Origin: a virus
Reading direction: 5' to 3' (one strand)
DNA length: 54,812 bases
Virus record (IMG/VR): IMGVR_UViG_3300042301_002348
Location: 1 to 54,812 of that record
The position numbers and the translations under genes are program-made. The notes under the pieces are model-generated. The model worked only from the letters and a program-made list of their open reading frames with translations, searched no databases and was not told the origin of the DNA. This document shows positions 37,056 to 54,360 of the stretch, piece by piece. Position 1 is the first letter of the stretch; each line of letters starts with the position of its first letter.

Positions 37056-37151
37056 ATGGGAACAATATTTCCGGTCATAATATCATTTACAATTGTAATA
37101 GGATTGACTATATTTTTAATGATAATTGACTACATCACAAAAAAAAGATAA
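37056..37151 (+). CDS. Tiny membrane peptide
   Basis: 31 aa (MGTIFPVIISFTIVIGLTIF...), one hydrophobic helix with the basic end DYITKKR. It fills the space before the next gene; start 1 nt after the GT2 stop. The open frame and transmembrane character are the only support. Confidence 0.45.
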   Translation: MGTIFPVIISFTIVIGLTIFLMIIDYITKKR

Positions 37152-37161
37152 AAAAAATTAT

Positions 37162-40623: not shown

Positions 40624-41228
40624 ATAGGTATTTTGTGAACACCTTTACTATCCTGAAGGGAGGAGACGAGAGTCTCCGACCGACAATTACACCCTATAAA
40701 ATTACCCCTCAGAACCCCTCCATAGGGGTTTTATTTTACCCCGAATTTTTTCCTGTTTATACCACTAAAAACCCTACTTTTTCCTGTCTGTTTTATCGTG
40801 ATCAATTAATATATCTAAAACTATCTTTTTCTATCCCATATTTGGGTTCTAGTATAATTTATCCACAATTCCCCACTTTCTCCCACTTACTAGGAATGTT
40901 CACTGGGATTGACCCGTGAGCGAATCACAGACCATTTTATTTTTTCTACCAGAATATACCCCTAATATCATTATATTATTACGGTCGGACTCTTCGAGTC
41001 CTCCCTTCAGGATGTCATACAACGTCTTAGTATAACCCTTTATATATTATATTAATCTGTCATACATTAGGTTCCACGTGGAACCCTGAAGGGGGACCGA
41101 AGGTCCCCCGTATAATAGAATATTCGTAATACAGGATGAAGGGGACCGAAGGTCCCCGAGTATACTTATAATACTTTTATACGGTCCTGATGTGATACGT
41201 CTATAATCCCTGAACCGTAATACAAACA

Positions 41229-41305
41229 TTACTGGGGAAACCCACCCATGGGAAATAGTTTGCCAAACAACATTAAGATTACTGGGGAGACCAATATTGT
41301 TTGGC
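41229..41305. repeat. Dyad with TTACTGGGG in its loop
   Basis: A 13-bp stem, GCCAAACAACATT (41262-41274) with AATATTGTTTGGC (41293-41305) with one mismatched pair, encloses a loop holding TTACTGGGG (41279-41287). Another TTACTGGGG lies just outside at 41229-41237. Confidence 0.7.
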
Positions 41306-41361
41306 AGATTATACGGGGACCTTCGGTCCCCTTCAGGAGAATCTCGGAATAATCCTATGGA

Positions 41362-41397
41362 AATTAAAAAAACCCTTAGGGATTTTCCGAAGGGTTC
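41362..41397 (-). terminator. Terminator of the minus-strand array
   Basis: AACCCTT (41371-41377) pairs with AAGGGTT (41390-41396). On the minus strand the stem is followed by TTTTTTT (complement of 41366-41371), ending transcription from the 41469 gene. Confidence 0.75.
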
Positions 41398-41468
41398 TTA
41401 GTATAGTACAATATATGTCTTACAAGGAAAGGATGAAGGGGGACCGAAGGTCCCCCGTAAGTAATACG

Positions 41469-42353
41469 TTATATCCATTTATAAATAAAGTTGAACTTAT
41501 CTAAATTACTTGAAAAACGAACAGGAACTAAATCATTTGATTTAAGTATGTATTTTATTCTTTCTGTTAATAGTGTTTCTAATAGTTCTTTTTTAGGTAC
41601 TGCATAATCTTCAGAAAGTTTTGGGTACTCTATATAGATTGGCATGAAATCGAAGTCTACTTCCCCAGTAATCTTGTTGTGGCTTCTTGCATCACATTTG
41701 AACTTAAGTTTAACATTTTTGGGGAATTTATAATATACCTTGATTTGTTTTAATTCACCATCATCTCCCATACTCGTATTGATTTCATCTGGTATTGTAA
41801 AGGTTCCCTCCTCGACGAAGTCAAGATGAACCTGAAGGTTATGTGGAGTATTCTTTTGGGATTGGAGTTGTCTCAGACCTCTATTAATTCTTTCCAAGGT
41901 GGTGTCGTCGAGTTCCATTACAGATCTGAATCCCACGGGATCTTTAAGAAAAGTCATCAGAGTCTTTACTTTACGAACTTCTTTTGTCCATTGAAGTATC
42001 TCCACGGGTAATACAGTGTCCATTGCACTGTTTAAGTTAAATCCAATGAATTCATTCATTCCCCCAGTAAATAATAGGTCACTGATCCTCACCATGGTTT
42101 CACCCATCTCATTACCATCTTTATCCATGTACTCGTCATACATGGGCTTGAACTTCTCCGCAATCTCGGTCATCAACTTGAATATTATATCTGGTTGGAC
42201 CTGAGTCTCACGTATTACGATGTTCAAGTAAGATCCAAATGTACCAAAAGTTTCAGGTAGTGTATAATAAATCTCACCGTTTATTGAGTTCAGCGGACCC
42301 CTCAGAGATTTTACGAATCTCTCGAAATCTGATTTGTCTAAAATTTTTCCCAT
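41469..42353 (-). CDS. Tagged protein, minus strand
   Basis: 294 aa. The tag KILDKSDFERFVKSLRG resembles the plus-strand tags (SDxERxV), and the octamer TATTTATA is at 42357-42364 on the minus sense strand, 3 nt before the ATG: the same tag-octamer pairing on the other strand. The remaining 270 aa include EDDTTLERINRGLRQL-type helices and a beta-rich half (YYKFPKNVKLKFKCDARSHNK, GEVDFDFMPIYIEYPKLS). No family recognised; probably a virion component. Last gene of the minus array. Confidence 0.7.
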   Translation of the reverse strand: MGKILDKSDFERFVKSLRGPLNSINGEIYYTLPETFGTFGSYLNIVIRETQVQPDIIFKLMTEIAEKFKPMYDEYMDKDGNEMGETMVRISDLLFTGGMNEFIGFNLNSAMDTVLPVEILQWTKEVRKVKTLMTFLKDPVGFRSVMELDDTTLERINRGLRQLQSQKNTPHNLQVHLDFVEEGTFTIPDEINTSMGDDGELKQIKVYYKFPKNVKLKFKCDARSHNKITGEVDFDFMPIYIEYPKLSEDYAVPKKELLETLLTERIKYILKSNDLVPVRFSSNLDKFNFIYKWI

Positions 42354-42366
42354 AGATATAAATATA

Positions 42367-42394
42367 AAAAAAAAGGTTCCATTGTGGTGGAACC
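42367..42394 (-). terminator. Terminator of the 59-aa gene
   Basis: On the minus strand GGTTCC/GGAACC stem (42375-42380 with 42389-42394) followed by TTTTTTTT. Terminates just before the tagged gene's octamer. Confidence 0.8.
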
Positions 42395-42421
42395 TCTTAG
42401 TAATACATGTGTGTAATAAGA

Positions 42422-42601
42422 CTATCGTCCCATTAACTCGTTACGGAACTGTACGGCCTTTCTCTTGCTTGAGAAATTCTTAGAGTACTTAGTACCATTA
42501 ACACTTACACGTACACGGTAAGATGAACCATCATGATAGATGTTGTCGGCAACAGGAACATATGTAGTAACTGTGGTGCGACGGGATGTTGTTTTTTTCA
42601 T
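42422..42601 (-). CDS. Small AP2/arm-type DNA-binding-like protein
   Basis: 59 aa. The segment YHDGSSYRVRVSVNGTKYSKNFSSKRKAVQFRNEL is like the three-stranded sheet plus helix of AP2 or tyrosine-integrase arm-binding domains (GxYRVRV-x-NGKRYSKxFxTxxEA). The N-terminus is basic (MKKTTSRRTTV). No integrase catalytic domain. Probably a small DNA-binding regulator. Confidence 0.6.
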   Translation of the reverse strand: MKKTTSRRTTVTTYVPVADNIYHDGSSYRVRVSVNGTKYSKNFSSKRKAVQFRNELMGR

Positions 42602-42747
42602 TTGTGACTATTTTAAGTTTATATATAAAATATAACAAATAATATCCAAATAAAAAAATCCTGCCAAAAAATATTTTACCCCAGTAAACTTAGACCATCT
42701 TGCTGTTGGTCAGAGGTGAATTCCCCAGTAATGTTCCGAGTCCCTGA

Positions 42748-42888
42748 TCAGGTCCCACTGTTGAGATATCTATCTCCCCACTTCTTGGTCATATAGGCAT
42801 CATACCTATGTACCTTGTTCGGGTTGAACAGGAATATCACGAAGTAGTAATCCCACTTCCACTCTAAATCTTTTAAAAACTTCTTCAT
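42748..42888 (-). CDS. Very small aromatic protein
   Basis: 46 aa (MKKFLKDLEWKWDYYFVIFL...). Hydrophobic and aromatic middle (YYFVIFLFN) and basic end. CCCCAGTAA copies flank it (42679-42687, 42723-42731, 42904-42912). Open frame and minus-array position are the only support. Confidence 0.55.
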   Translation of the reverse strand: MKKFLKDLEWKWDYYFVIFLFNPNKVHRYDAYMTKKWGDRYLNSGT

Positions 42889-42914
42889 ATGATGTTGTTT
42901 ATTCCCCAGTAATG

Positions 42915-43115
42915 TTATCCCATCTTCTCCTTCCTGAGGATGTCGGTCAGAAGATTTTTGTGATTTTGAACGATTACACCGTGCTGTTTCTTAAGAGCTT
43001 CCTCTAAGGACATTCGTTTGTGTGTAATCTTCCAATTGATTCTGTCGGTCGACTCCCATCGTTCCCAATGCTTACCACTAGGTGAGAGCTGAATTCTACT
43101 GTGAATCTTTTTCAT
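42915..43115 (-). CDS. Small basic protein
   Basis: 66 aa from the ATG at 43113-43115 (MKKIHSRIQLSPSGKHWERW). A longer reading would begin before the promoter at 43139-43170, so it is rejected. Basic, with Trp-rich KHWERWESTDRINWKITHKR and a helix SLEEALKKQHG. Nucleic-acid binding is possible. Confidence 0.65.
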   Translation of the reverse strand: MKKIHSRIQLSPSGKHWERWESTDRINWKITHKRMSLEEALKKQHGVIVQNHKNLLTDILRKEKMG

Positions 43116-43138
43116 TTGTTTTTTATTTGATAATTCCG

Positions 43139-43170
43139 CAAAGGTACGGTGTTTAAGGGTTAATACCAAA
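43139..43170 (-). promoter_or_regulatory. Sigma-A promoter fixing the start at 43115
   Basis: On the minus strand TTTG (43167-43170), 20-nt spacer, TACCTTTG (43139-43146). The leader is 23 nt. Confidence 0.8.
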
Positions 43171-43173
43171 CCC

Positions 43174-43740
43174 TTAAACAAATTCTTCAGTTTTAATCAT
43201 ATTGAAATCAATTGACTTCAGTTTGAATACTAAGTAGTCGATTGCTATTCCCACAATCTTTCCATTGTGCTTGGCTACAAGAAGTCGGTAGGAACCATCC
43301 CCATAACCTGAAGACGATACTACCCCAGTATTATATGATCCCCACTGTTGGCTTGACAAGGTTAATCTACACATCTTCTCATACCACTTATCTCCCTCAC
43401 CCTCACACGGTAACATAAAGTCCATCTTAGGTGCTGTTATCTCGTCAGCAATGGAATCATTCCTATAGGACTCCATATCAAATATCCCACACTGACCTGA
43501 GTCAACACCGATATCTGCTGCGGTAACTGTTCTCCAAGACAAATCGTCCTCCACATAATCCTTGTGGACAGCAACAAGTGCTGCACATCTTGTACCCCAA
43601 CCACCGGTCTCATCCGATTTGAATGCTGTGGAGGAGTACTCACCAGGTAATACATCTGTCAACTTATGCTGACACCAGGTAGGGACAGTGTAACAAGGGT
43701 CCGATACCATAACTTCCGAGCCTAAATAAATTTTTTCCAT
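43174..43740 (-). CDS. DUF4241-like conserved protein
   Basis: 188 aa. VMVSDPCYTVPTWCQHKLTDVLPGEY (VSDPCY-x4-W), then CAALVAVHKDY and GVDSGQCGIFDMESYR, and a terminal SYNTGVVSSSGYGDGSYRLLVA match a family (DUF4241) widely found in phages and bacteria, function unknown. Starts 1 nt after the previous stop. Confidence 0.75.
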   Translation of the reverse strand: MEKIYLGSEVMVSDPCYTVPTWCQHKLTDVLPGEYSSTAFKSDETGGWGTRCAALVAVHKDYVEDDLSWRTVTAADIGVDSGQCGIFDMESYRNDSIADEITAPKMDFMLPCEGEGDKWYEKMCRLTLSSQQWGSYNTGVVSSSGYGDGSYRLLVAKHNGKIVGIAIDYLVFKLKSIDFNMIKTEEFV

Positions 43741-43741
43741 T

Positions 43742-44065
43742 TTAAATTACATTTATTGTGAATGATTCTGTTTCGATTTGTCTGTGTAAATAAACTAAGT
43801 GTTCCATTGTAAGGTCGTTATAACCTAAGTCGTGGTAACCATCTCCTGTAATACCTTTGGTGATTAACTGACCTGTGCTTCCACATATCCCTATAACAAC
43901 TACTTTAACTTGGTAGTCGTCGTCGAAGTTTTGGGTAAACCACACTGAGAATGGATTGATTAATTCTAATTCAAATTCGTCCCCTCCGTTAAGTTTAACG
44001 GTTCTGTGGACAATATCTCGGTGAATGGAATCACGGAGCTTTAGTAACTCTTGAGAGTAATTCAT
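43742..44065 (-). CDS. Hypothetical protein
   Basis: 107 aa. Helical N-terminus (SQELLKLRDSIHRDIVHR) followed by a beta domain (FELELINPFSVWFTQNFDDDYQVKVVVIG). Unknown. A promoter with -7 TAATTTCG at 44090-44097 lies 24 nt before the start. Confidence 0.7.
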   Translation of the reverse strand: MNYSQELLKLRDSIHRDIVHRTVKLNGGDEFELELINPFSVWFTQNFDDDYQVKVVVIGICGSTGQLITKGITGDGYHDLGYNDLTMEHLVYLHRQIETESFTINVI

Positions 44066-44089
44066 ATGATTAATAGTTTAAGTGTAATA

Positions 44090-44121
44090 CGAAATTAAGT
44101 ATTCTTTTCGAATATTCCAAA
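44090..44121 (-). promoter_or_regulatory. Sigma-A promoter with one mismatch
   Basis: Minus strand TTTG (44118-44121), 20 nt, TAATTTCG (44090-44097). Confidence 0.65.
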
Positions 44122-44604
44122 TTATGCTAGAATATTTTTTAGAACTTTAATATTCTCGTCAATCTCAAGGTCCATCACTTTAAGTAACTTCTCCTTGGCT
44201 AACTCCATAAACTCTACACTGTTACCCAGTAAATCTATGTCCGTCCCGTGCACATCCGTCTTCCCGACGATAACCCTGATGTCCTTAGTACCTTTACCCT
44301 CTCTATAGAATAGAGCTCGAGCATAGATGTACTCACGAACCAAAGACAGTTTGATTTCATCTGCCACAGATTCCTTAGAACGGAGTTGCATAATGATTTC
44401 TTCTAACTTGGCTAACATCTCGAAGTTGGTCTTCATCATACGGATGCTGTTCTTATACTGATTACAGTACTTCACCAGCTCATCAGTGTGAGGAATACTT
44501 AAGTCGATGTCCACATTAAGGAAACGATCGTATGAACTAATTCTATCTCGGGTACCCACTATCTCAGTGAATACTCCTCCCGTTAAACGATTTTCTCTAC
44601 CCAT
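44122..44604 (-). CDS. Hypothetical helical protein
   Basis: 160 aa. Long helical middle (NSIRMMKTNFEMLAKLEEIIMQLRSKESVADEIKLSLVREYI). Overlaps the next upstream gene by 22 nt. Unknown. Confidence 0.7.
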   Translation of the reverse strand: MGRENRLTGGVFTEIVGTRDRISSYDRFLNVDIDLSIPHTDELVKYCNQYKNSIRMMKTNFEMLAKLEEIIMQLRSKESVADEIKLSLVREYIYARALFYREGKGTKDIRVIVGKTDVHGTDIDLLGNSVEFMELAKEKLLKVMDLEIDENIKVLKNILA

Positions 44605-44804
44605 TTTATTTTTGTTTTTAATTTGTTTAAAATCCCAGTAAACTTGTCCCCATCCTGGCTCACCTCAGGTGCGAACTCATATCTCGTGTTCATTGTACCC
44701 CCCAAATAACCAGTAAAGTATTTGGTTGGTTCAACATATTGACTCGATACTCTATATCTTTCCACCCACTCATTAAATGATAATGGGGTTTGGAATGTGC
44801 TCAT
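44583..44804 (-). CDS. Hypothetical small protein
   Basis: 73 aa from the ATG at 44802-44804 (MSTFQTPLSFNEW); this is 2 nt past the stop of the Api92-like gene (TAAGATG). Contains YFTGYLGGTMNTRYEF; TTACTGGT/G is part of the coding sequence. Overlap with 44122 gene is 22 nt. Confidence 0.65.
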   Translation of the reverse strand: MSTFQTPLSFNEWVERYRVSSQYVEPTKYFTGYLGGTMNTRYEFAPEVSQDGDKFTGILNKLKTKIKWVEKIV

Positions 44805-44805
44805 C

Positions 44806-45441
44806 TTACATTTCAGTTTCTTTTCCATATATCTCTTTTAATTCGTTAAAAATTTCTTCTAATTTTTTAAGGTCTTCGTCCCCAGTAATAAAATGGAACA
44901 TTTCCTTCACCGACTCGAAGGTTACATCTTCATCACTCTCGAACAAATAGTCAATGTCCCCGTCGATAGATTCAAAGAAGTTCTCCTTGTCGAAAAGATA
45001 TCTACCCTCATTGTATGAATAATCTTCTTCGGTTAATCCATTCTCATTGTCAAAATAAGATTTACCACAGAAGTCACAACCTGGTTCTTCATAATATAAC
45101 TCACACTTCACATTGAATAACCTACCCAAGTGTTGAATGAAGTTTATTGGTGGTGACCAAGCTGAATCGAACGACATTGTTATTGATTCGTCATCATAAG
45201 TGATATTAGCTTCGTTGTATGACACATCCCACTTACAACCCCAGTAATTAATGTTGGCATCGTACCATCCTCCGTGTTCGTATTCATTTAACTCAATAGA
45301 TTTGTCACGACCAACAAGAGCCATAAAAATACCAGGGGATGTGTTATCCTTACTCTCGATATCTTCGAGATAAAATTTAATTCTGTCCAAGTTTTCGTTA
45401 TCACCTGTAATAGTAAGGTGATTGTTGCACCAATTTGGCAT
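44806..45441 (-). CDS. Api92-like (ferredoxin-fold, DUF1281-type) protein
   Basis: 211 aa starting MPNWCNNHLTITG at 45439-45441, the classical start of the Api92/YubB family, found in phages and plasmids with unknown function. A non-ATG start 24 nt upstream lies against the promoter -7 box and is rejected. Central SFDSAWSPPINFIQHL and a later CDFCG motif are family features. C-terminus is acidic (ESDEDVTFESVKEM). Confidence 0.85.
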   Translation of the reverse strand: MPNWCNNHLTITGDNENLDRIKFYLEDIESKDNTSPGIFMALVGRDKSIELNEYEHGGWYDANINYWGCKWDVSYNEANITYDDESITMSFDSAWSPPINFIQHLGRLFNVKCELYYEEPGCDFCGKSYFDNENGLTEEDYSYNEGRYLFDKENFFESIDGDIDYLFESDEDVTFESVKEMFHFITGDEDLKKLEEIFNELKEIYGKETEM

Positions 45442-45462
45442 AGTTGTATGATTTATGTTTAA

Positions 45463-45494
45463 CAAAGATATAACAGGGATATCATTATTCCAAA
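45463..45494 (-). promoter_or_regulatory. Sigma-A promoter fixing the Api92-like start
   Basis: Minus strand TTTG (45491-45494), 20 nt, TATCTTTG (45463-45470). Confidence 0.85.
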
Positions 45495-45515
45495 TAATAT
45501 CCCCGTTATTTTATT

Positions 45516-45998
45516 TTACCAAGAAGCTCTGTATTCAAAGTCACCAGAGTACAATCCGTGTTCTTTGGATTGTTCGTGTTCTTCTAACAACTCCTCAATG
45601 ATTTTGATAGTTGAGTTTACATCTTCTTTGTAATACTCATCAATTTCATCACCACCGAAAAAGAAACCCTGTACTGGTGGAAGAAGTTCTTTAGCCTTAT
45701 CAAAGTTGGAACTAACTTCTTTTAGTGTTTCAAATAACTCTTTCAGCTTGTCCTCATCAACATTGATGTTTTGACATTCATCAATACCACCACCACAATT
45801 CTCAACGAACCATCCGTGAAGTGCATTGAACTTTCTCCAATACGCCACCTGTTCGGTGATGTAACAAATACGATTTGGTTTAATGTCGTTACGAACTACA
45901 CCATTCTTTTTAACTTCGATTTGGTGTTGTTGTTCAGGTGGGTTGTGTTCCCAATTTTGTACATAAGTTCTTTTGTACAGATACATGTCTAGTCCCAT
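45516..45998 (-). CDS. Conserved phage protein MGLDMYL family
   Basis: 160 aa. MGLDMYLYKRTY...VAYWRKFNALHGWFVENCGGGIDECQ is a signature I know from phages and bacteria, function unknown (some database annotations are unreliable). Conserved Trp-Arg-Lys-x-N-x-Ihxx-F pattern and GGG. A promoter is at 46030-46061. Confidence 0.8.
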   Translation of the reverse strand: MGLDMYLYKRTYVQNWEHNPPEQQHQIEVKKNGVVRNDIKPNRICYITEQVAYWRKFNALHGWFVENCGGGIDECQNINVDEDKLKELFETLKEVSSNFDKAKELLPPVQGFFFGGDEIDEYYKEDVNSTIKIIEELLEEHEQSKEHGLYSGDFEYRASW

Positions 45999-46029
45999 GA
46001 TTTTTTAGTTTAAGTGTTAATTAATAATG

Positions 46030-46061
46030 TAAAGGTATTACAATAATTTTATTATACCAAA
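46030..46061 (-). promoter_or_regulatory. Sigma-A-type promoter
   Basis: Minus strand TTTG (46058-46061), 20 nt, TACCTTTA (46030-46037). Confidence 0.65.
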
Positions 46062-46385
46062 TTATTTTATGAAAAGTTTACTATCGATTGTAAATAATTC
46101 TTTGTACTCACTTCCGTCAGCATTCTGTCCGTTTAAATTCCAGAATGGCAACACTCTTGGATTGTATTTTAAATGTGCGGTAGTTTCAGGAATAAAATCT
46201 TCGGTAAGAATTTCTATTTCTTTACAAAGAACATAAGCACAAACGACTTTGGTGGTTTCCCCAGTAAATATTTTCTGCGCTGCTGTCCTGTTGTTTTTCA
46301 GAACGCAATCAGTTAGTATTAACTGAACTTCAGCTGGGTGATAATATTTCACCCAGCCGTTGTTATATTCAATTTTCCATTTCAT
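46062..46385 (-). CDS. Hypothetical protein
   Basis: 107 aa from the ATG at 46383-46385 (MKWKIEYNNGWVKYYHPAEV). The longer reading lies inside the previous gene and is rejected. Beta-rich with KKKIFTGETTKV; function unknown. Downstream of the MGTRST gene by 34 nt. Confidence 0.7.
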   Translation of the reverse strand: MKWKIEYNNGWVKYYHPAEVQLILTDCVLKNNRTAAQKIFTGETTKVVCAYVLCKEIEILTEDFIPETTAHLKYNPRVLPFWNLNGQNADGSEYKELFTIDSKLFIK

Positions 46386-46419
46386 ATAGTTCTCTCCCTT
46401 TCCGAGATTGAACCTAACT

Positions 46420-46872: not shown

Positions 46873-46905
46873 AATAAATTTTTTTTTGTGATTAATATTA
46901 TGATA

Positions 46906-46936
46906 CAAAGATAATACTTTTTTATTACCTGCCAAA
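46906..46936 (-). promoter_or_regulatory. Sigma-A promoter
   Basis: Minus strand TTTG (46933-46936), 19 nt, TATCTTTG (46906-46913). Confidence 0.8.
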
Positions 46937-46979
46937 TTTATTTTCAACTTTTTTAAAAAAATATTTGCCGGCGTCATGC

Positions 46980-47105
46980 ATAATCCTAAACATTACTGGG
47001 GTGTAATACGGATCTGATCGGCGCACGATCTGCAAAACTGGCTAAACATTACTGGGATGTACCCCAGTAAACTTTCGCCTCAGGCCTGTGCAGATACAGT
47101 GCACA
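46980..47105. repeat. TTACTGGG island A
   Basis: TTACTGGGG (46993-47001) followed by TGTAATACG, then the inverted pair TTACTGGG (47049-47056) with CCCCAGTAA (47062-47070), 5-nt spacer. GC-richer than the genes (GATCGGCGCACGATC). Lies between a terminator and the next promoter. Confidence 0.85.
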
Positions 47106-47106
47106 G

Positions 47107-47136
47107 CAAAAAAAATCCCCACCTTTCGGTGAGGAC
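47107..47136 (-). terminator. Terminator of the gp88-like gene
   Basis: On the minus strand the CCTCACC-GAAA-GGTGGGG stem precedes TTTTTTTT (complement of 47107-47115). Confidence 0.8.
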
Positions 47137-47142
47137 ATTAAA

Positions 47143-47901
47143 TTAAAGTTGTATGACAAACTTATTCTTTGTTAACTTATTTCGAACTCGTTTATATTTT
47201 AGTCCGACAATTACATTCTTTTTATCTTTATACCTCATATCGTATAAATCCCCATCGATTACTTTCCTATCCCAAAATGTTTTAGGTACTTTATTAAAAA
47301 CAACCGCCACCCTTACATTCTTATTTAACATTGAGTGACACTCATTTAAATTGTGACCGCTATAAGAGAAAGTTAAATCGTAGTTCTTATATTTTTTAAG
47401 TAGTTCGATTCTTTTAGGAACCTTCGTATAATCGTAGAATTGAATATGTTGAAAGTATTGTAAAATATTAACGGGTTTATCATTTACATGAAGATAAAAC
47501 GATTCGGGTGTTATATCTGATGTGTTATTCAAACGAACTGAAAATTTATAACCTAACTTCTTAGCCTTCAATTCAGTTGCTTTAATTTCATCGAATAACC
47601 AACTGACAAAAAATTCTCTGTGTTCAAAAAACAATTTAGTTTTTGCAATTCGTGAACGATTAATTTTATCGTCCTCCATGTTCATCGTGTTCATCCCTGA
47701 TTCATTCAAACATAACTTTGTACATTCTTTTGTTCTCATAGGGCAAACCTCGTAACCGCTCATTTTTGCAGGAGCTAAGTACAAACTATATGTTAATTCA
47801 TCGTACTTGAATGCCTTCTGATGTTTGGTTGTCATATTAACGGAGCCTAAATAAGATATCCCTGTTAATCTTTTTGCTTGAGCTTTAGTAGTGTAAATCA
47901 T
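47143..47901 (-). CDS. Gp88-like phage protein
   Basis: 252 aa from the ATG at 47899-47901. YEVCPMRTKECTKLCLNESGMNT with the Cys trio, RSRIAKTKLFFEHREFFVSWLFDEI, and FSVRLNNTSDITPE are hallmarks of the phage gene-product-88 family. The cysteine arrangement could bind a metal or Fe-S cluster. Function unknown; common in mycobacterial and other phages. Its promoter region shares a 30-bp identical block with that of the 51836 gene. Confidence 0.8.
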   Translation of the reverse strand: MIYTTKAQAKRLTGISYLGSVNMTTKHQKAFKYDELTYSLYLAPAKMSGYEVCPMRTKECTKLCLNESGMNTMNMEDDKINRSRIAKTKLFFEHREFFVSWLFDEIKATELKAKKLGYKFSVRLNNTSDITPESFYLHVNDKPVNILQYFQHIQFYDYTKVPKRIELLKKYKNYDLTFSYSGHNLNECHSMLNKNVRVAVVFNKVPKTFWDRKVIDGDLYDMRYKDKKNVIVGLKYKRVRNKLTKNKFVIQL

Positions 47902-47922
47902 TTGTTTATTTTTTAGTGTACA

Positions 47923-47954
47923 CAAATATACAACTAATACTTTTATATTCCAAA
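47923..47954 (-). promoter_or_regulatory. Sigma-A promoter of the gp88-like gene
   Basis: Minus strand TTTG (47951-47954), 20 nt, TATATTTG (47923-47930), followed by a GTGTACAC palindrome. Confidence 0.85.
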
Positions 47955-47974
47955 TTTATTTTTAAATATTTTTT

Positions 47975-48122
47975 TGAGTCAGCGCATGCGCGCAGCACTG
48001 GCCTAACTTTACTGGGGTAATACGACACAGATTTTGCATGCAGATTACAGGTGAATAATTACTGGGATGTACCCCAGTAAACTTGTGCGCTGGTCCGAGC
48101 TGCGTTTGCGCTGAGGGTAATA
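47975..48122. repeat. TTACTGGG island B
   Basis: TTACTGGGGTAATACG (48009-48024), then TTACTGGG (48059-48066) and CCCCAGTAA (48072-48080) with the same 5-nt spacer as island A, then GTAATACG at about 48117. An open frame across it (47962-48177) is a by-product. Confidence 0.85.
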
Positions 48123-48123
48123 C

Positions 48124-48156
48124 GCAAAAAAAAGGGTGAACATTTCTGTCCACCCA
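48124..48156 (-). terminator. Terminator after the 104-aa gene
   Basis: Minus strand stem GGGTG...CACCC followed by TTTTTTTT (complement of 48124-48131). Confidence 0.6.
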
Positions 48157-48176
48157 ATCGTTCACACTAATAAACA

Positions 48177-48491
48177 CTAATCACTAATTCGTTTTTCTGT
48201 TCTAATACACTCAGCTTCCCACTGCTCACATAGAAGTAATACATCTTCCAACACATTCTCATTCAACTCCCAATAACTTTCTTCGTAGGTGTCGATAGCG
48301 TCAGAACTACTTGAACGAGGTTCGTACACATTTACTTCGATATAATCTTCTGTGAAATATTCACCCAACCCAACATAGTTACCTAGTGTACCAACGAGAA
48401 TACTATTCTCACCTTCTAATTCTCCAATACTAAAACATCCGTTGACTTTTAGTATGTCTGTAATACGATTAATGATTTCTGAATTTTCCAT
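48177..48491 (-). CDS. Hypothetical acidic protein
   Basis: 104 aa. Helix start (SEIINRITDILKVNGCFSIGEL), then a beta hairpin and a C-terminal LLLCEQWEAECIRTEKR. Unknown. Two nt after the upstream gene's stop. Confidence 0.7.
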   Translation of the reverse strand: MENSEIINRITDILKVNGCFSIGELEGENSILVGTLGNYVGLGEYFTEDYIEVNVYEPRSSSSDAIDTYEESYWELNENVLEDVLLLCEQWEAECIRTEKRISD

Positions 48492-48493
48492 TT

Positions 48494-48766
48494 TTAAATT
48501 GATTTAGTATTATCCCAAATTATATTACCTTCCTCGTCATACAACTCCTCCGTAGGTTCTCCACCATTTTCGTCAGGCATTATACGCTCAAGAGTTTCGT
48601 CAATATGTTCCCACGGCAGTTCAGTGGTTCCCATTTCTAAATGAAATCCAATTGCTAATTGTTTAGCCTCCTCCATTGAGTTAGCCTCGATTTCAAATTC
48701 GGTACGATACCAGGTCGTAACCTTTGTGTCCAAATGAAAGTTAAATGTTGTTAGGGTCTGTTCCAT
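48494..48766 (-). CDS. Hypothetical acidic protein
   Basis: 90 aa. TTFNFHLDTKVTTWYRTEFEIEANSMEEAKQLAIGF has the strand-strand-helix arrangement of small DpnD/PcfM-like sensors (EIEANSxEEA), but this is a weak call. Acidic tail PDENGGEPTEELYDEEG. Starts inside the 3' end of the small membrane gene by 26 nt. Confidence 0.65.
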   Translation of the reverse strand: MEQTLTTFNFHLDTKVTTWYRTEFEIEANSMEEAKQLAIGFHLEMGTTELPWEHIDETLERIMPDENGGEPTEELYDEEGNIIWDNTKSI

Positions 48767-48866
48767 TTTCTATTGATTTTTTAATTGATATAATAAGTAA
48801 TACAACCATTACCGAAAACAATACAATAACTCCGAATCCTAAAAGTAGACAATATAAGACATTCAT
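48741..48866 (-). CDS. Tiny membrane protein
   Basis: 41 aa (MNVLYCLLLGFGVIVLFSVM...), one strong transmembrane helix and a short tail SIKKSIENGTDPNNI. First gene of a short operon; the overlap with the next start by 26 nt supports coupled translation. Confidence 0.65.
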   Translation of the reverse strand: MNVLYCLLLGFGVIVLFSVMVVLLIISIKKSIENGTDPNNI

Positions 48867-48877
48867 AGTTTTAATTT

Positions 48878-49075
48878 TTAAAGTTCACGAATATACATAT
48901 AATCTTCTAATTCTTCCAAAGGAATTCTTCCGTTATTAGAACTATAATATCCTTGTCTTCGATATCGTTCTTTCCACTTGTCAAATGCCTCAAATGCTTT
49001 TTCCTTTGATGTGTAATAAGGTCTATCGAATTCAATCGTAAACCCGTCGGGGGATAATACTTCGTACTTTGTCAT
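48878..49075 (-). CDS. Conserved small phage protein
   Basis: 65 aa. YEVLSPDGFTIEFDRPYYTSKEKAFEAFDKWKERYRRQGYYSSNNGRI is a conserved phage pattern (VLSPDGF.. YxSxxEA...YxxQGYYSSxxGRI). Unknown function. ATGA overlap with the DUF1737-like gene. Confidence 0.8.
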   Translation of the reverse strand: MTKYEVLSPDGFTIEFDRPYYTSKEKAFEAFDKWKERYRRQGYYSSNNGRIPLEELEDYMYIREL

Positions 49076-49422
49076 AGTCCTGCATTTTTAATGATACAAT
49101 CTAATTTATATTCAAATTCTTCCCTCATACCTTCAATGTCATATACCTTTCTATTTTCATCCACTTCATTATCTTCATTAATGTAAGGATGATAAAAAGC
49201 AACATCCACTTCAATTACATTCGGTTTAAATTCCTTAACCATACTAATTGAATATTCGTGTTTAATTAAGGTATCTTGGTGTTGTGAACCACTATACCTA
49301 TTTTGTCTATGTTGTTCCACAACTTGGTGTGAACCCATAGGTTTCCAACCATTTTTAATTAGGTTGTTAATTTTCTCCGTCAATCCTTCGGGGGATGAAC
49401 TTGTTAATACTTTGTACTCCAT
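49072..49422 (-). CDS. DUF1737-containing protein
   Basis: 116 aa from the ATG at 49420-49422. MEYKVLTSSSPEGLTEKINNLIKNGWKPMGSH matches DUF1737 (WKPxG). A C-terminal acidic portion (EDNEVDENRKVYDIEGM) is extra. Function unknown. Leader fixed by the promoter at 49445. Confidence 0.8.
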   Translation of the reverse strand: MEYKVLTSSSPEGLTEKINNLIKNGWKPMGSHQVVEQHRQNRYSGSQHQDTLIKHEYSISMVKEFKPNVIEVDVAFYHPYINEDNEVDENRKVYDIEGMREEFEYKLDCIIKNAGL

Positions 49423-49444
49423 AATATTTTTGTTTAGTGTAAGA

Positions 49445-49476
49445 CAAAGATAAAACAATAATATTATTTTACCAAA
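49445..49476 (-). promoter_or_regulatory. Sigma-A promoter
   Basis: Minus strand TTTG (49473-49476), 20 nt, TATCTTTG (49445-49452). Confidence 0.85.
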
Positions 49477-49494
49477 TTTATTTTGAAGAATTTT

Positions 49495-49690
49495 TTTTCA
49501 GCCCGATCATCCTAAACATTACTGGGTTGAATTGTTAGCCAGCGCAAATTTCCTGATCAGCGCGCGCAAATCTGGCTAATGTTTACTGGGGTGTCCCAGT
49601 AATAATCACTTGCGCACAATGCCTGGTCCATGAGTTATTTGTAATACCCCAGTAAACTTCATGATCAGCGCACAGTGTGACGGGTTCTTC
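49495..49690. repeat. TTACTGGG island C
   Basis: TTACTGGG (49519-49526); TTACTGGGG (49583-49591) with CCCAGTAA (49595-49602), 3-nt spacer; GTAATACCCCAGTAA (49641-49655). Two TGATCAGCGC sites (about 49552 and 49662) and GC-rich CGCGCGC. 330-bp gap without a gene. Confidence 0.85.
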
Positions 49691-49695
49691 TAAAC

Positions 49696-49729
49696 AAAAA
49701 ACCCCCGAACCAAAAGTCCGAGGGTTTCA
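49696..49729 (-). terminator. Terminator of the 50060/49754 unit
   Basis: Minus strand: ACCCTCGGAC stem with GTTCGGGGG (some G-T) followed by TTTTTT. Confidence 0.8.
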
Positions 49730-49753
49730 CCAATCTAATCTTTAACCTTTGTC

Positions 49754-50032
49754 TTATCTTAGTCTTTCATCAACAACTAAGTTATAATATCCGTTTAAGA
49801 AATTAATTATTTCTGTAATACTTTCTTTTGACACTTTATGTTCTAATAACAATGATTCGATAAATCGTTTATTATCCGTCAAACCTAAACAATAAATAAA
49901 ACCATTATCATCGTTTTTAGTATTAAAAAAAGTAAAATCAATTTCAATCGGTTTTAATTTAATTCTTACTTTCTGATAATTCTCAGAATCAATTTTCAAA
50001 GTTTTAGTTTTAATAACTTTACTTGTGTCCAT
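49754..50032 (-). CDS. Hypothetical protein
   Basis: 92 aa. Lys/Ile-rich; beta strands KVRIKLKPIEIDFTFF then an amphipathic helix KESITEIINFLNGYYNLV. Second in an operon after the DUF932 gene. Unknown. Confidence 0.7.
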   Translation of the reverse strand: MDTSKVIKTKTLKIDSENYQKVRIKLKPIEIDFTFFNTKNDDNGFIYCLGLTDNKRFIESLLLEHKVSKESITEIINFLNGYYNLVVDERLR

Positions 50033-50059
50033 ACTTTTATTTTTTTAATTATTAATGTC

Positions 50060-50920
50060 TTACACTAAATGTACAAGTTCCTTAAAGATTTGTCTCTCAC
50101 GATTTCCGTAAGTTCCGAACATCTTATTTTCAGAATTGTCACCTTTACCCATACTATGAGTTGTGTATTTTGTTACACCACTAAATAAACCCCAAATGTT
50201 ATCACCCTTTTCGTTAATCTCACCATTAAGGTCGACATAGAATCTACTTAATTTGTTTCGTGTTACGATATGTAACGAATCAACATCCTTAATATCAACA
50301 TTCTTTTCGATATTGAATAATGATTTGATTACTCTATCCTTGATAATATCATCGAAACGAGTTTCACTCATTTTAACGATAGAACCGAACACATTCTTTT
50401 CTTCTTGTACTACACCCTCAATTTGTCGACAGATATCTTCTATCTTTAATTCCATATTCTTTGTATGACGTACCTTTGAATCTAAATCTTTGTACACACC
50501 GAAGAATGTGTTTTGACAACTGATAGTTTTCGAACTAGGACCGAACGATAATGAAGTCGAACCATCGAAAGAATTAATCCCAGTAACATAACCCTCGATT
50601 CTATCCGTCCCCAAAGTTAAGTCATTAGATTTTAACTGAACGAATACTTTTCGTCCACCACCGAACAAACCACCCCTATGAACATCAAGTCCAGTTTGTT
50701 GGGACACTTTGAACAATAGTTCCATCATTTGGTCATTCTGATATGGTACATAACCATTAGAGTGAATACCCAAGATTGTACTATCATCCTCACGAACGAT
50801 ACCAATTTTATCAGGGATAATAATTCCTGACGAAGTTTGAAGTCCTTCGGTACGGACTTTCCAATTTAAACCAGTTCTATCCAAGAACTGATTAACCCGA
50901 TTGTTTTCTACGATTTCCAT
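50060..50920 (-). CDS. DUF932 phage/plasmid-like protein
   Basis: 286 aa. IVREDDSTILGIHSNGYVPYQNDQMMELL, FGGGRKVFVQLK, GTDRIEGYVTGINSFDGSTSLSFGPSSKTISCQNTF are diagnostic of DUF932 (TIGR03299-like). The family is common on phages, plasmids and ICEs with no established role. VTGINS codes through a TTACTGGG-like site (50578-50585). Leader 37 nt from the promoter. Confidence 0.9.
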   Translation of the reverse strand: MEIVENNRVNQFLDRTGLNWKVRTEGLQTSSGIIIPDKIGIVREDDSTILGIHSNGYVPYQNDQMMELLFKVSQQTGLDVHRGGLFGGGRKVFVQLKSNDLTLGTDRIEGYVTGINSFDGSTSLSFGPSSKTISCQNTFFGVYKDLDSKVRHTKNMELKIEDICRQIEGVVQEEKNVFGSIVKMSETRFDDIIKDRVIKSLFNIEKNVDIKDVDSLHIVTRNKLSRFYVDLNGEINEKGDNIWGLFSGVTKYTTHSMGKGDNSENKMFGTYGNRERQIFKELVHLV

Positions 50921-50957
50921 CTGTTTAATTTTTATGGTTTAATAAATGATTGTATGA

Positions 50958-50989
50958 CAAAGATAAATCAATTTGGCATATAATCCAAA
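50958..50989 (-). promoter_or_regulatory. Sigma-A promoter of the DUF932 gene
   Basis: Minus strand TTTG (50986-50989), 20 nt, TATCTTTG (50958-50965). Confidence 0.85.
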
Positions 50990-51014
50990 TTTATTTTTAA
51001 GAAATATTAATTAA

Positions 51015-51115
51015 TTTTTTCTCCTGATCCACCTGTGATCAGAGCTCCCAATATTACTGGGTAATACTTGATGATACCCCAGTAATTTTATGGGATGATC
51101 AGGGACGAGAAATCT
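51015..51115. repeat. TTACTGGG island D
   Basis: TTACTGGGTAATAC (51054-51067) and CCCCAGTAA (51077-51085), with 15 nt between the half-sites; TGATC and TGATCAG sites flank it. A 51.02-51.13 kb island. Confidence 0.8.
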
Positions 51116-51123
51116 GTGGACAT

Positions 51124-51155
51124 AAAAAAACCCCCGACAGAATCGGAGGTCTTTA
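51124..51155 (-). terminator. Terminator of the 51171 gene
   Basis: Minus strand CCTCCGATTCTGTCGGGGG stem followed by TTTTTTT. Confidence 0.8.
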
Positions 51156-51170
51156 ATATAATAAGGGATT

Positions 51171-51494
51171 TTACTCCCCTAATAAATTTAGTACAAGGTG
51201 TTCGGAAGTTTCCTCCTCCCACACATCATCATTCCAATCCTCACCGACTTGTGTACAAGTCTTGTAGTCAAGGTAGACAATACCCATTTTAATTGTGACA
51301 ATTCCTTCGGTTCTTTCGTTGATGGGAACCAACTCTTTTTCCACAAGGAATAAAAGTACGGTTTCGTAGACAAAAAATTGGTCGGTATTTTCCGACTCAA
51401 CATATTCAACTTGACCTTGGAAGTCAAGGGAGAATTCGAATTCCATGTCAGAACTCAAAATCTTTTTAATCTCGGATAAGTATGTAGTATCCAT
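51171..51494 (-). CDS. Hypothetical acidic protein
   Basis: 107 aa. Beta-rich (EFEFSLDFQGQVEYVES, IVTIKMGIVYLDYKT), C-terminal very acidic (GEDWNDDVWEEETSEH). Unknown. Promoter TATATTTG at 51526-51533 upstream. The gene is a transcription unit on its own. Confidence 0.7.
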   Translation of the reverse strand: MDTTYLSEIKKILSSDMEFEFSLDFQGQVEYVESENTDQFFVYETVLLFLVEKELVPINERTEGIVTIKMGIVYLDYKTCTQVGEDWNDDVWEEETSEHLVLNLLGE

Positions 51495-51525
51495 AGTGTG
51501 TAGGTCTATTGGTTAGTAGACAATA

Positions 51526-51556
51526 CAAATATAAAAAAGAAATTCCGTTTTACAAT
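51526..51556 (-). promoter_or_regulatory. Sigma-A promoter, weaker -33
   Basis: Minus strand TATATTTG (51526-51533); the -33 element is ATTG (51553-51556), 19 nt away. Confidence 0.6.
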
Positions 51557-51589
51557 ACATTTATGAAAAATTATTTTACTTTTTTTCTG

Positions 51590-51770
51590 ACCCTGGTAAT
51601 CCAAATATATTACTGGGTAATACAAGAATTCCAGTTCGGGGACCTACTGGAAATTAATACTGGGTAAACTCCCCAGTAAAGTAATACGTCCGAACCGTCG
51701 CGTCGGAAATTCTAACACACACTATAAACTCCCCAGTAAAGTAATACACCTAACCGGTCGAGGACCTGAG
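51590..51770. repeat. TTACTGGG island E with tandem element
   Basis: TTACTGGGTAATAC (51610-51623); TACTGGG (51658-51664); two copies of CCCCAGTAAAGTAATAC (51671-51687 and 51731-51747), 60 nt apart, each followed by a CG-rich half (CGTCG, CGGTCG). 300-bp gap without a gene. Confidence 0.85.
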
Positions 51771-51777
51771 GTATGAA

Positions 51778-51810
51778 CAAAAAAAAAAGGATAGTCTTTC
51801 GACTACCCTT
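51778..51810 (-). terminator. Terminator of the 51836 gene
   Basis: Minus strand stem GGGTAGTC-GAAA-GACTATCC followed by ten T. Strong terminator. Confidence 0.85.
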
Positions 51811-51835
51811 CTTCACCTTTCCAACCTATGTATTT

Positions 51836-52396
51836 CTACACAACTACTCCTTCTAAATGTCGTAATACGGACTTACCTTCATCCCAACAATCGTCCTCAC
51901 TATAATAACTTCCACAACATTCAACTAATGTTTTGTGTTCGTGACCTTTATTACAAGTTTCAATTTCATAAACTTTGTATTGATAAACTTCACCCGTTAA
52001 GTATTCATCATAAATTCTAACTTCACTATTCATAATCAAACTTAACTTTTCTTCACCCCTTTCAAAATCTTTACCACACATTAAGTTCAATTGTTTTTCA
52101 CTAATGAAAATCCAACCAACTTGTCCACTATCCCATTGACAACTGAACGGACTTGTGGATATAGTTATACCACTATGGTCGTACATATACAAAGGTTTAA
52201 TCAAAAGGACTTTATGGTCACTTTCAATTTGTGACTTCAATTCATCCCAACTATCAAAGTCAACACTTTTGTAGTCAGTTTTGTCACCAATATCGTACCT
52301 TTTGTGAAAACAAATCATTGTAGTAATGTTATCCCACTCGGTACGAGGATTCATTGGGTCGTTATCGTGTTCGACAACTAATTCATACTTTCTCAT
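51836..52396 (-). CDS. Conserved phage protein, unknown function
   Basis: 186 aa from the ATG at 52394-52396. LIKPLYMYDHSGITISTSPFSCQWDSGQVGWIFIS is a recurrent phage signature (YxHSGxTIxTxPFSCxWDSGQVGxI). Start fixed by the promoter. A Cys-rich end (ETCNKGHEHKTLVECCGSYYSED) is also part of the family. Unknown function. Confidence 0.85.
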   Translation of the reverse strand: MRKYELVVEHDNDPMNPRTEWDNITTMICFHKRYDIGDKTDYKSVDFDSWDELKSQIESDHKVLLIKPLYMYDHSGITISTSPFSCQWDSGQVGWIFISEKQLNLMCGKDFERGEEKLSLIMNSEVRIYDEYLTGEVYQYKVYEIETCNKGHEHKTLVECCGSYYSEDDCWDEGKSVLRHLEGVVV

Positions 52397-52417
52397 TTTA
52401 ATGTTTTTTAGTGTACA

Positions 52418-52447
52418 CAAATATACAACTAATTCGGTTATATCAAA
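52418..52447 (-). promoter_or_regulatory. Sigma-A promoter with GTGTACAC
   Basis: Minus strand TTTG-like (52444-52447), 18 nt, TATATTTG (52418-52425), with the GTGTACAC palindrome next to it (52411-52418). A 30-bp block (52404-52433) is identical to 47909-47938. Confidence 0.75.
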
Positions 52448-52489
52448 AATAAATTTGTTAAAATATTGTCAAAGAATTTTGGATACCCG

Positions 52490-52622
52490 TGAAGGTAAAA
52501 TAATTTACTGGGATGTATGACAAGGATACCCCAGTAATTTTTCGACTCTGTCTTCCTGATGATGAGGTTCTTTTTGTATTACCCAGTAATAAAAACAGAT
52601 GGACGGAGATGGAGAAATTTTT
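52490..52622. repeat. TTACTGGG island F
   Basis: TTACTGGG (52505-52512) and CCCCAGTAA (52529-52537), then GTATTACCCAGTAA (52576-52589). 16-nt spacer between the first two half-sites. Confidence 0.8.
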
Positions 52623-52624
52623 GA

Positions 52625-52656
52625 ACAAAAAAAATCCACCCCTTTCGGAGTGGACT
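52625..52656 (-). terminator. Terminator of the 52680 gene
   Basis: Minus strand stem GTCCACTCC-GAAA-GGGGTGGAT followed by TTTTTTTT. Confidence 0.8.
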
Positions 52657-52679
52657 TCGGTTAGTAGGGGAACTAACCT

Positions 52680-53210
52680 TTAAATGAACTCGTAAATGTT
52701 TCCGTTGTATGACACTTCTTTAACATTATCCAAACTTACCGATAAGGTTTGTACCTTTCTTTCACTCGGTTGATTTTTGTAATTGTTTGACTTCACTAAC
52801 CAACTATCAAACAAAGTTTGGTCAATAGGGTTTCCCTCAAACTCAAATTCAACTTTTGGTTTCACTTCCATAAACCACTCGTATTGAAGATAATACTTTT
52901 TTGTATTTTCGTTGTAAAGGATAACATTGTTGATATGGTTACCAACTTTATTTTCACTTACTTGAAAATTACCTTCACCACCACCCTTAATTTCGTTACC
53001 CTTTACTCGTTGTTCGTACTCACCACCGATTAAAACTCTAACCGATTTTTTCTTCACAACTTTTCCATAATACTTGTTCAAACCTTCCCTACCCCCTTTG
53101 TTCATTTTTGGGATAGTGTGTGTAACTAAATTCATAAATGTAGGATTTTTAACCTCGTTCATCATTTTGATAAACTCACCTTGTTGGATTTTGAAACGAT
53201 TTTTTTTCAT
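52680..53210 (-). CDS. Hypothetical basic protein
   Basis: 176 aa. Lys/Asn/Gly-rich (MNKGGREGLNKYYGKVVKKKSVRVLIGGEYEQRVKGNEIKGG); C-terminal half with VKPKVEFEFEGNPIDQTLFDSWLVK and KVQTLSVSLDNVKEVSYNG. Conserved in phages by pattern but no family name. A clear -7 box is lacking upstream. Confidence 0.7.
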   Translation of the reverse strand: MKKNRFKIQQGEFIKMMNEVKNPTFMNLVTHTIPKMNKGGREGLNKYYGKVVKKKSVRVLIGGEYEQRVKGNEIKGGGEGNFQVSENKVGNHINNVILYNENTKKYYLQYEWFMEVKPKVEFEFEGNPIDQTLFDSWLVKSNNYKNQPSERKVQTLSVSLDNVKEVSYNGNIYEFI

Positions 53211-53280
53211 AACATTATTTTGTTTATTTTTTCAATACTCTAAATTACAACTTTTATCCAATATAACAAAATATATTTAA

Positions 53281-53640
53281 TATTTTTTTATCCACATTCT
53301 TAATTTTTTTTTGTGGACAAATTGTGGATAACTTTTTCCCCCTGATCCAGAAATAAATTACTGGGGACTCTCTGAGAAAAAATCTGTCCCGTTCAGGAAA
53401 ACAATACTGGGGAAAACGAAAAAACATGTATCGATGTGTTGATGCAGGAAAACAATACTGGGGACGTAAAGAAAAAAAATCTGTAAATCTACCTGTTCGA
53501 TATTACTGGGGTGTAATACGTTTTACCCCAGGAAACTTTTCCTGGATGATCAGATTCAAGGTTCATTGTTGTGTAATACCCCAGTATAGTTTTCCTGGAG
53601 ACTCGGTTCCACCCACACTTCTTAAAAACAAAAAACCCCA
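53281..53640. other. TTACTGGG island G with DnaA boxes (origin candidate)
   Basis: 470-bp gap. AT-rich start with TTATCCACA (53288-53296), TGTGGACAA (53312-53320, one mismatch on the reverse strand) and TGTGGATAA (53323-53331). Then TTACTGGGG (53358-53366); a 20-bp direct repeat CAGGAAAACAATACTGGGGA at 53394-53413 and 53445-53464; TTACTGGGGTGTAATACG (53503-53520); GTAATACCCCAGTA (53573-53586). A terminator-like hairpin for the 53682 gene follows. Confidence 0.7.
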
Positions 53641-53664
53641 CAACTAAAAGTCGTAGGGTTTCAA
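53626..53664 (-). terminator. Terminator of the DUF4314 unit
   Basis: Minus strand AAACCCTACGACTTTTAGTTGTGGGGTTTTTTG gives a stem (ACCCTACGAC with GTTGTGGGGT) followed by TTTTTT. Confidence 0.65.
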
Positions 53665-53681
53665 AAATAATCGTGTCGAGT

Positions 53682-53894
53682 CTAATATACTATTTCAAAC
53701 TTATCTTCATCGGGAATTACGGATAGTTTTCTTCCGTTATCCCAATTCACACCATAATAACCCATATCATCAACGAATACAATCGTACCCATTGTGTTAG
53801 GTTGAATAGGGTTTGTCTTTGGGTCATCATCCATTAGAATCAATCTAATTCTTTTACCAACTAATTCTTTTCTAATTTTTAATAGTTCAAACAT
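53682..53894 (-). CDS. DUF4314 family protein
   Basis: 70 aa. LVGKRIRLILMDDDPKTNPIQPNTMGTIVFVDDMGYYGVNWDNGRKLSVIPDEDKF is the whole DUF4314 domain (GxRIxLxxMxDD...P.GxxGTVxxVDDxGxxxVxWDNGxxLxxIPxxDxF). A conserved, short phage/bacterial protein of unknown role. 11 nt after the previous gene. Confidence 0.9.
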   Translation of the reverse strand: MFELLKIRKELVGKRIRLILMDDDPKTNPIQPNTMGTIVFVDDMGYYGVNWDNGRKLSVIPDEDKFEIVY

Positions 53895-53905
53895 TGTTAT
53901 AGGTT

Positions 53906-54106
53906 TTATTCGTGAGAAAATAACATTTCCAATAAACCTAAAACGATAGGATGTACCTCATTATTGTTTGAGTCCCCCCATTGTTTGACTTCCCCATTTT
54001 CTTGGATGTGAAAGTTTGTCTTTGTACCATCGGTCAGTTTGAACCAACCCTTAACTTCATTGTGTCCAATGAAATTGAATTTTTGTGTTGTGATTTGTGT
54101 AGTCAT
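53906..54106 (-). CDS. Hypothetical small protein
   Basis: 66 aa from the ATG at 54104-54106 (MTTQITTQKFNFIGH). Beta-rich GWFKLTDGTKTNFHIQENGEVKQW. A promoter -7 box TATATTTG is at 54128-54135. First gene of an operon with DUF4314. Confidence 0.65.
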   Translation of the reverse strand: MTTQITTQKFNFIGHNEVKGWFKLTDGTKTNFHIQENGEVKQWGDSNNNEVHPIVLGLLEMLFSHE

Positions 54107-54127
54107 TTTGTTTAAATGTTTAGTACC

Positions 54128-54135
54128 CAAATATA
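54128..54135 (-). promoter_or_regulatory. Sigma-A -7 box
   Basis: Minus strand TATATTTG (54128-54135). No TTTG at the expected distance. Confidence 0.5.
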
Positions 54136-54184
54136 CAAATATTATTTTTATATAAAAAGTTTTTTTGTTAAAATTTTGTGAAAG

Positions 54185-54360
54185 AATTTTCCCGTGTTGT
54201 TACATTGCTTTTATTACTGGGGTAATACGAAGATGTGGTTTTTTATAAGCAGACGACACGACATTACTGGGAAATGTCATACGTTCATCCCAGTAAAATT
54301 GTCCCATCTGCATTGTTGTAACGGCAGTTGCGTTTGAGCTGATTCGGTAATACACCTAAA
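54185..54360. repeat. TTACTGGG island H
   Basis: TTACTGGGGTAATACG (54214-54229); TTACTGGG (54264-54271) with CCCAGTAA (54289-54296), 17 nt between; GTAATAC near 54347. The gap 54107-54428 contains no gene. Confidence 0.85.

Follow-up and report, generated by a model that had tools for sequence, protein, structure and literature searches.

Convergent, Terminator-Coupled DNA Sites Lie behind Most Terminators of One Early-Gene Block in Very Large Uncultured Phages

Introduction

Roadblock-type termination sites of the Reb1/TTF-I kind put a protein site a defined distance past a terminator and in many cases depend on orientation, and operator arrays such as MotA boxes provide phage-wide sites for a single phage repressor or activator. 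Stoperators, another class of site, lack symmetry, follow the direction of transcription, and vary from one phage to its relatives (PMC6550527, PMC9283540). Here, we describe a set of intergenic islands in the 54,812-nucleotide record IMGVR_UViG_3300042301_002348 (the window, i.e., the whole stretch of DNA that was analyzed), which is a complete IMG/VR record and probably itself a fragment of a jumbo phage. The islands are built from copies of a short word, the half-site, and are convergent, terminator-coupled sites behind most terminators of one early-gene block in very large uncultured phages, probably phages of Bacteroidota. They look like a built-in barrier that keeps the transcription of neighboring genes apart.

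The nearest biological parallel is found in the stoperators of Cluster A mycobacteriophages (L5, Bxb1, and TipsytheTRex). Like these, the islands supply many short asymmetric sites per genome, oriented with transcription, with a phage-specific consensus that varies between relatives, and the action on elongation proposed for stoperators is a further likeness. Unlike stoperators, which are single sites spread across the genome and bound by a monomeric repressor, the islands occupy one block in every large relative, consist mostly of convergent pairs that are helically phased and stand a fixed distance past terminators, and contain a second, constant word. Reb1/TTF-I sites share with the islands the set distance past a terminator and the frequent dependence on orientation, but they belong to eukaryotic RNA polymerase I/II systems and have no sequence relationship to the islands. 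MotA-type arrays likewise form a phage-wide site set for one regulator, whereas the fixed geometry of the islands is to terminators rather than promoters. Finally, integron attC arrays also part small genes by inverted-repeat elements that are alike within a genome and differ between lineages; in contrast, the block described here has no integrase, the arms of its islands are not kept complementary as in a folded single strand, and every unit is served by a promoter and a terminator of its own. In the literature on jumbo-phage intergenic inverted repeats and similar elements, we found nothing matching.

Results and Discussion

An initial annotation of this DNA, made from the sequence alone, had described eight islands (A to H) carrying an inverted motif and had proposed counting that motif against shuffled sequence. 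All eight could be located by coordinates (Table 1), each flanked by the terminator of a minus-strand unit on one side and the next unit's promoter on the other, as had been claimed. Exact copies of the window's half-site, TTACTGGG/CCCAGTAA, numbered 36 over both strands, compared to 1.37 expected, and a count of 36 was reached by none of 100 shuffles. All copies fell within 41229-54296, with none in the first 41 kb of the window, in agreement with the reported absence of the motif from the first 40 kb. Islands A and B share TTACTGGGATGTACCCCAGTAA exactly, and the copies placed inside genes near 44883, 45241, 46262, and 50579 were found at 44881, 45240, 46260, and 50579. The other array half-sites listed in Table 1 for 41664..46267 all read TTACTGGG in minus-strand gene sense, and in-gene copies across the window's block were sense rather than antisense by about 10:1 (7:0 when only genes of 240 bp or more are counted). 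The word GTAATAC, previously seen to follow the motif, is likewise confined to the region beyond 41 kb and is directional, with 26 copies on the plus strand vs. 3 on the minus strand; read in gene sense, it is GTATTAC. Beyond what had been noticed initially, the half-site is lineage-specific, its arms are convergent, and its geometry is fixed to the upstream terminator and not to the promoter.

Table 1. Positions of islands, other half-sites, and associated features in the window; signs in parentheses give the strand of each half-site
Feature	Position	Strand	Details
Island A	46980..47098	-	half-sites 46993(+), 47049(+), 47063(-), span 46993-47070; sense GTATTAC 47003
Terminator before island A	about 47106-47138	-	island A located behind it
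Island B	48000..48124	-	half-sites 48009(+), 48059(+), 48073(-), span 48009-48080; sense GTATTAC 48017, 48117
Island C	49512..49680	-	half-sites 49519(+), 49583(+), 49595(-), 49648(-), span 49519-49655
Island D	51046..51110	-	half-sites 51054(+), 51078(-), span 51054-51085; sense GTATTAC 51061
Island E	51600..51760	-	half-sites 51610(+), 51657(+, ATACTGGG), 51672(-), 51732(-), span 51610-51739
Island F	52497..52600	-	half-sites 52505(+), 52530(-), 52582(-), span 52505-52589
Island G	53350..53610	-	half-sites 53358(+), 53404(+), 53455(+), 53503(+), 53580(-, ATACTGGG), span 53358-53587
Island H	54206..54356	-	half-sites 54214(+), 54264(+), 54289(-), span 54214-54296; sense GTATTAC 54222, 54347
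Left block edge, tail-to-tail boundary	41217..41290	+	half-sites 41229(+), 41279(+)
Two direct half-sites	42680..42731	-	
Other array half-sites	41664..46267	-	41664, 42063, 42905, 44225, 44634, 44881, 45240, 46260; mostly in-gene
Half-site within DUF932 gene	50579..50586	-	sense orientation
59-residue AP2/integrase-arm-like protein	42422..42601	-	candidate GTATKAC reader; conserved at this block end

Close relatives of the phage (marker proteins at 97-100%) carry the same motif, in one block of ~20 kb in the near relatives, while farther relatives were present on contigs of up to 336 kb. On the large contigs, the word is restricted to a single block of ~15-45 kb; a motif equally frequent in the rest of the genome, which the initial annotation had named as a possible refutation, was thus not what we found. 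Relatives at ~45-75% protein identity are without TTACTGGG and have another over-represented word in the same type of island (TTACCRGG, TGTTTGGC, TGATTGGC, TGGTTGGC, TCTGTGGC, TCTTTGGC, TGACTGGC, TGTTTCGC, or TTGTCTAGTTT), and the half-site changes even among close relatives (TTACTGGG, TGTTTCGC, and TGACTGGC). The island-bearing blocks of relatives with different words are homologous; the island stays in place, and its spelling changes by lineage. The second possible refutation, that related phages have islands without the motif, is therefore literally true, but those islands hold a different half-site at the same place, which makes the case for a trans-acting partner stronger.

Two observations on related words are added here. 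In the more distant relatives L026 and L028, a strong repeated word, TGTAAACTT, occurs within promoters, directly behind terminators; it was rejected as a counterpart of the islands, since it adjoins the promoter and these relatives lack islands. At the left block edge of the window, multiple GGGGACCTTCGGTCCCC-type hairpin copies stand in both orientations (41090-41460), and an inverted repeat, TGCCAAACAA ... TTGTTTGGCA, surrounds a TTACTGGG copy (41250-41310) and contains the half-site of another lineage (TGTTTGGC) within this phage.

The geometry of the islands was assessed quantitatively in 14 contig blocks that jointly cover most half-site spellings. The first half-site lay a median of 44 bp behind the terminator T-run (interquartile range [IQR] 38-52 bp), and of 166 such half-sites, 154 were in sense orientation and only 12 in antisense. 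Behind 64 terminators, a sense half-site was found at 35-50 bp, compared to 9.7 expected from uniform placement in the gap. Half-sites were present in 132 of 151 tandem gaps with a detected terminator, in 27 of 62 tandem gaps without one, and in 7 of 20 head-to-head gaps, counts that are not controlled for gap length. The spacer between terminator and half-site had a GC content of 0.40-0.53, vs. 0.33-0.38 for the block; it sometimes carries CTGAAG 2-5 bp after the T-run, and RRAWTT stands at its end, before the half-site. Relative to the next promoter, no fixed position was found, as the last half-site lay a median of 76 bp upstream of the -7 box with a looser spread (IQR 52-91 bp). Given this fixed distance and orientation to terminators, the islands would concern transcription leaving a unit rather than transcription starting one.

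These distances bear on the idea that the islands are promoter operators, at which a phage activator or repressor upstream of each early promoter would switch the block on or off. Every island does precede a promoter, the last half-site at the median distance just given, and a lineage-specific partner would be expected in this case as well. We nevertheless regard such operators as unlikely, because the distance to the promoter is loose and off the classical activator/repressor positions while that to the terminator is tight, head-to-head promoter regions are mostly without half-sites, and in-gene copies are sense-oriented in the TTACYGGG lineages. Of the operator or nucleoprotein site suggested initially, the putative site for a regulator-like protein is supported, and the tie to the next promoter is not. 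The same annotation had also suggested a partition or replication site. A replication origin, centromere-like partition array, or packaging array, in which GTATKAC would give a direction to the DNA, would be compatible with many short oriented repeats confined to one block and with a directional word; yet the sites are spread over 15-45 kb at about one island per transcription unit and are tied to terminators instead of being clustered, so that we see only a slight chance for a function of this kind.

Within islands, adjacent half-sites are convergent, and divergent neighbors are nearly absent. The spacers between convergent half-sites were helically phased at ~10.25 bp (R 0.44), with P ~2e-7 over 78 values, a figure inflated by the nonindependence of related islands in one genome, and P ~0.002 over distinct values. 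When the arms of convergent pairs were compared with the lineage word, 112 of 115 deviating positions deviated in one arm alone and 1 was compensated; the sense arm deviated at 36 positions, vs. 76 for the other arm. Individual islands fold well in isolation, but exchanging their flanks left the pairing just as good (mean z -0.16), and together with the uncompensated arms, this led us to reject long hairpins and cruciforms. Because the arms deviate independently, the islands very probably serve a putative trans-acting protein as sites on double-stranded DNA, and not as hairpins. The phasing and the independent deviation also support the original proposal that the islands act as DNA. Conversely, an RNA element, in which the arms of a read-through transcript would form a hairpin displaying GUAUKAC, might explain why sense-directed GTATKAC sits between inverted arms; with a single compensated change, flanks that pair like swapped ones, and helically phased spacers, it is hardly credible.

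GTATKAC, the constant word, is located mainly between the arms and at times directly after the T-run, in sense orientation. Loci encoding a 59-residue AP2-like protein held 4.4-18.2 sense copies per 10 kb, compared to 0-3.9 in loci without it, with no overlap between the two ranges, although this link between protein and word is a correlation confounded by kinship. In loci with the protein, there were 506 sense vs. 152 antisense copies; two loci with a divergent version of it are without GTATKAC. The predicted fold (pLDDT, predicted local distance difference test, 83.5) is strand-strand-strand-helix, i.e., a three-stranded sheet packed on one helix, and its best coherent structural matches in Foldseek were integrase arm and AP2 domains (template modeling score ~0.5-0.6), at weak E-values of about 0.85. 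No AP2 match was obtained in Pfam, and PHROG returned only an HNH endonuclease at E 0.07. From these comparisons, the protein is probably the reader of GTATKAC.

The reader of the half-sites must be sought elsewhere, since the 59-residue protein is near-identical in its sheets in phages with five different half-sites, cannot therefore set half-site specificity, and was rejected for this role. Two fast-evolving block families were also tried and set aside: a 160-residue family gave a helical model without a fold match, and a 176-residue family, which was aligned only, had no usable family match. Close relatives that differ in their half-sites have a median identity of only 57-61%, so that looking for outlier genes among them yielded no information.

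About 19 proteins, part of the genomes' proteins, were scanned for a repressor with a helix-turn-helix plus stoperator domain, and none was recognized. This result bears on superinfection immunity, in which a resident phage protein would silence the early block of an incoming phage and thereby drive fast half-site change. In its favor, the half-site differs between close relatives, as stoperators do between heteroimmune phages; some 20-60 sites stand in the early block; and in-gene copies are sense-oriented. However, in addition to the lack of a repressor gene among the scanned proteins, tyrosine integrase is missing from all but one of the 12 records, which gives no indication of lysogeny, and we found no description of 44-bp terminator coupling for stoperators. 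Immunity is therefore quite improbable. As regards the stoperator-like orientation with transcription, the second arms of the islands are inverted.

The reading that we prefer is a stoperator-like barrier behind each terminator that would insulate short transcription units, and we give it an even chance; promoter operators, an origin, partition, or recombination would each be a poorer fit. Followed along the direction of transcription, the barrier would be laid out as a terminator hairpin with its T-run, a GC-richer spacer of ~40 bp, a sense half-site (RRAWTT plus a lineage-specific word of the TNNNTGGS type), GTATKAC, an inverted half-site, an AT-rich stretch, and the next TTTG/TAnnTTTG promoter. 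We infer a sequence-specific, putatively phage-encoded protein of lineage-dependent specificity that would bind the half-sites on double-stranded DNA and act on transcription, while a second, conserved factor, probably the 59-residue protein, would read GTATKAC. Together, they would form a polar nucleoprotein barrier behind every terminator, which would halt read-through polymerase, and perhaps also post-termination polymerase retained on the DNA, before it reaches the next short unit. In-gene sense copies may work in a stoperator-like way, dampening elongation over the block when the protein is abundant. In vitro, RNA polymerase that diffuses after termination is hampered by a roadblock beyond the terminator (PMC7957599). 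On the sequence evidence, putative protein binding and its coupling to terminators are well supported.

Several points weigh against this barrier. Among 234 terminators in the blocks, 68 are without a half-site; in-gene copies show no sense bias in several lineages, the bias being limited to the TTACYGGG lineages; and the 44-bp gap exceeds what direct contact with a terminating polymerase would need. The conserved fast-evolving block proteins that were tested gave no DNA-binding match, and the 59-residue protein does not supply the half-site specificity. The inflated phasing P value, the weak Foldseek matches, and the effect of kinship count on the same side.

A fuller version of the barrier can be put forward only tentatively. 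It would be a phage-encoded insulator, in which a fast-evolving DNA-binding protein and a conserved AP2-like partner form a polar barrier at ~37-48 bp past most of the early block's intrinsic terminators. Tandem genes would thereby become separate transcription units, polymerase might be sent back after termination to the promoter from which it came, and competing phages would keep their lineage-specific half-sites different. Protein sites that recur over an entire gene block at a set distance past intrinsic terminators, and that are all respelled together when the lineage changes, would amount to a kind of transcription insulation that we have not found described in phages; they would also offer a readable specificity code of half-site vs. 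putative reader over many natural variants, and a testable case for unit independence in the crowded small-gene blocks of jumbo phages.

Compared with its nearest relatives, the window differs by an inversion, a deletion, two swaps of island interiors, and two insertions of cassettes, all ending at half-sites. In island C, relative G002 has the segment 49583-49655 in inverted form, and G003 has an insertion of a whole gene cassette; a cassette is also inserted at island D in G003, the interior of island E is swapped for another segment in G002, and in G001/G002, one half-site copy of the pair at 42680..42731 has been deleted with the intervening stretch. Such events suggest a recombination or cassette-boundary signal, as had been proposed initially, with islands as exchange points for the gain, loss, and inversion of small cassettes. 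Across 12 records, however, we found no serine recombinase and only one record with a tyrosine recombinase (PF00589), outside the block. Since neither recombinase family searched accounts for the rearrangements, site-specific recombination was rejected. Furthermore, the arms do not retain complementarity as folded attC-type sites do, short-homology exchange may arise anyway from repeated 8-9-bp words, and the fixed terminator distance would be left unexplained, which together make a recombination signal very unlikely. In the inverted segment of G002, TAATAC stands where TATTAC would be expected, as though the word had regained its direction. The sole tyrosine recombinase is located at L092:7797-8246 (G009 187797-188246), ~40 kb from the island block.

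The promoters read from the sequence consist of TTTG followed by TAnnTTTG, which we take to be the Bacteroidota form, and the host is therefore probably a member of Bacteroidota. Neither the window DNA (30-54.8 kb) nor the 59-residue protein had a match in the annotated phage collection, which gave no named phage relative for the protein; by the pattern used, the protein was also absent from 84,980 bacterial and archaeal genomes. Outside the block, the plus strand of the window encodes a 462-residue protein (39191-40579) with repeated zinc-ribbon-like modules (CDCG...CGC) and an HNH-like C-terminal part, without a Pfam match, as well as two paralogous proteins (34935-35612 and 37126-37899) that share MKILxIAxGRCGSHSLxDWL and lie in a glycan-synthesis-like region.

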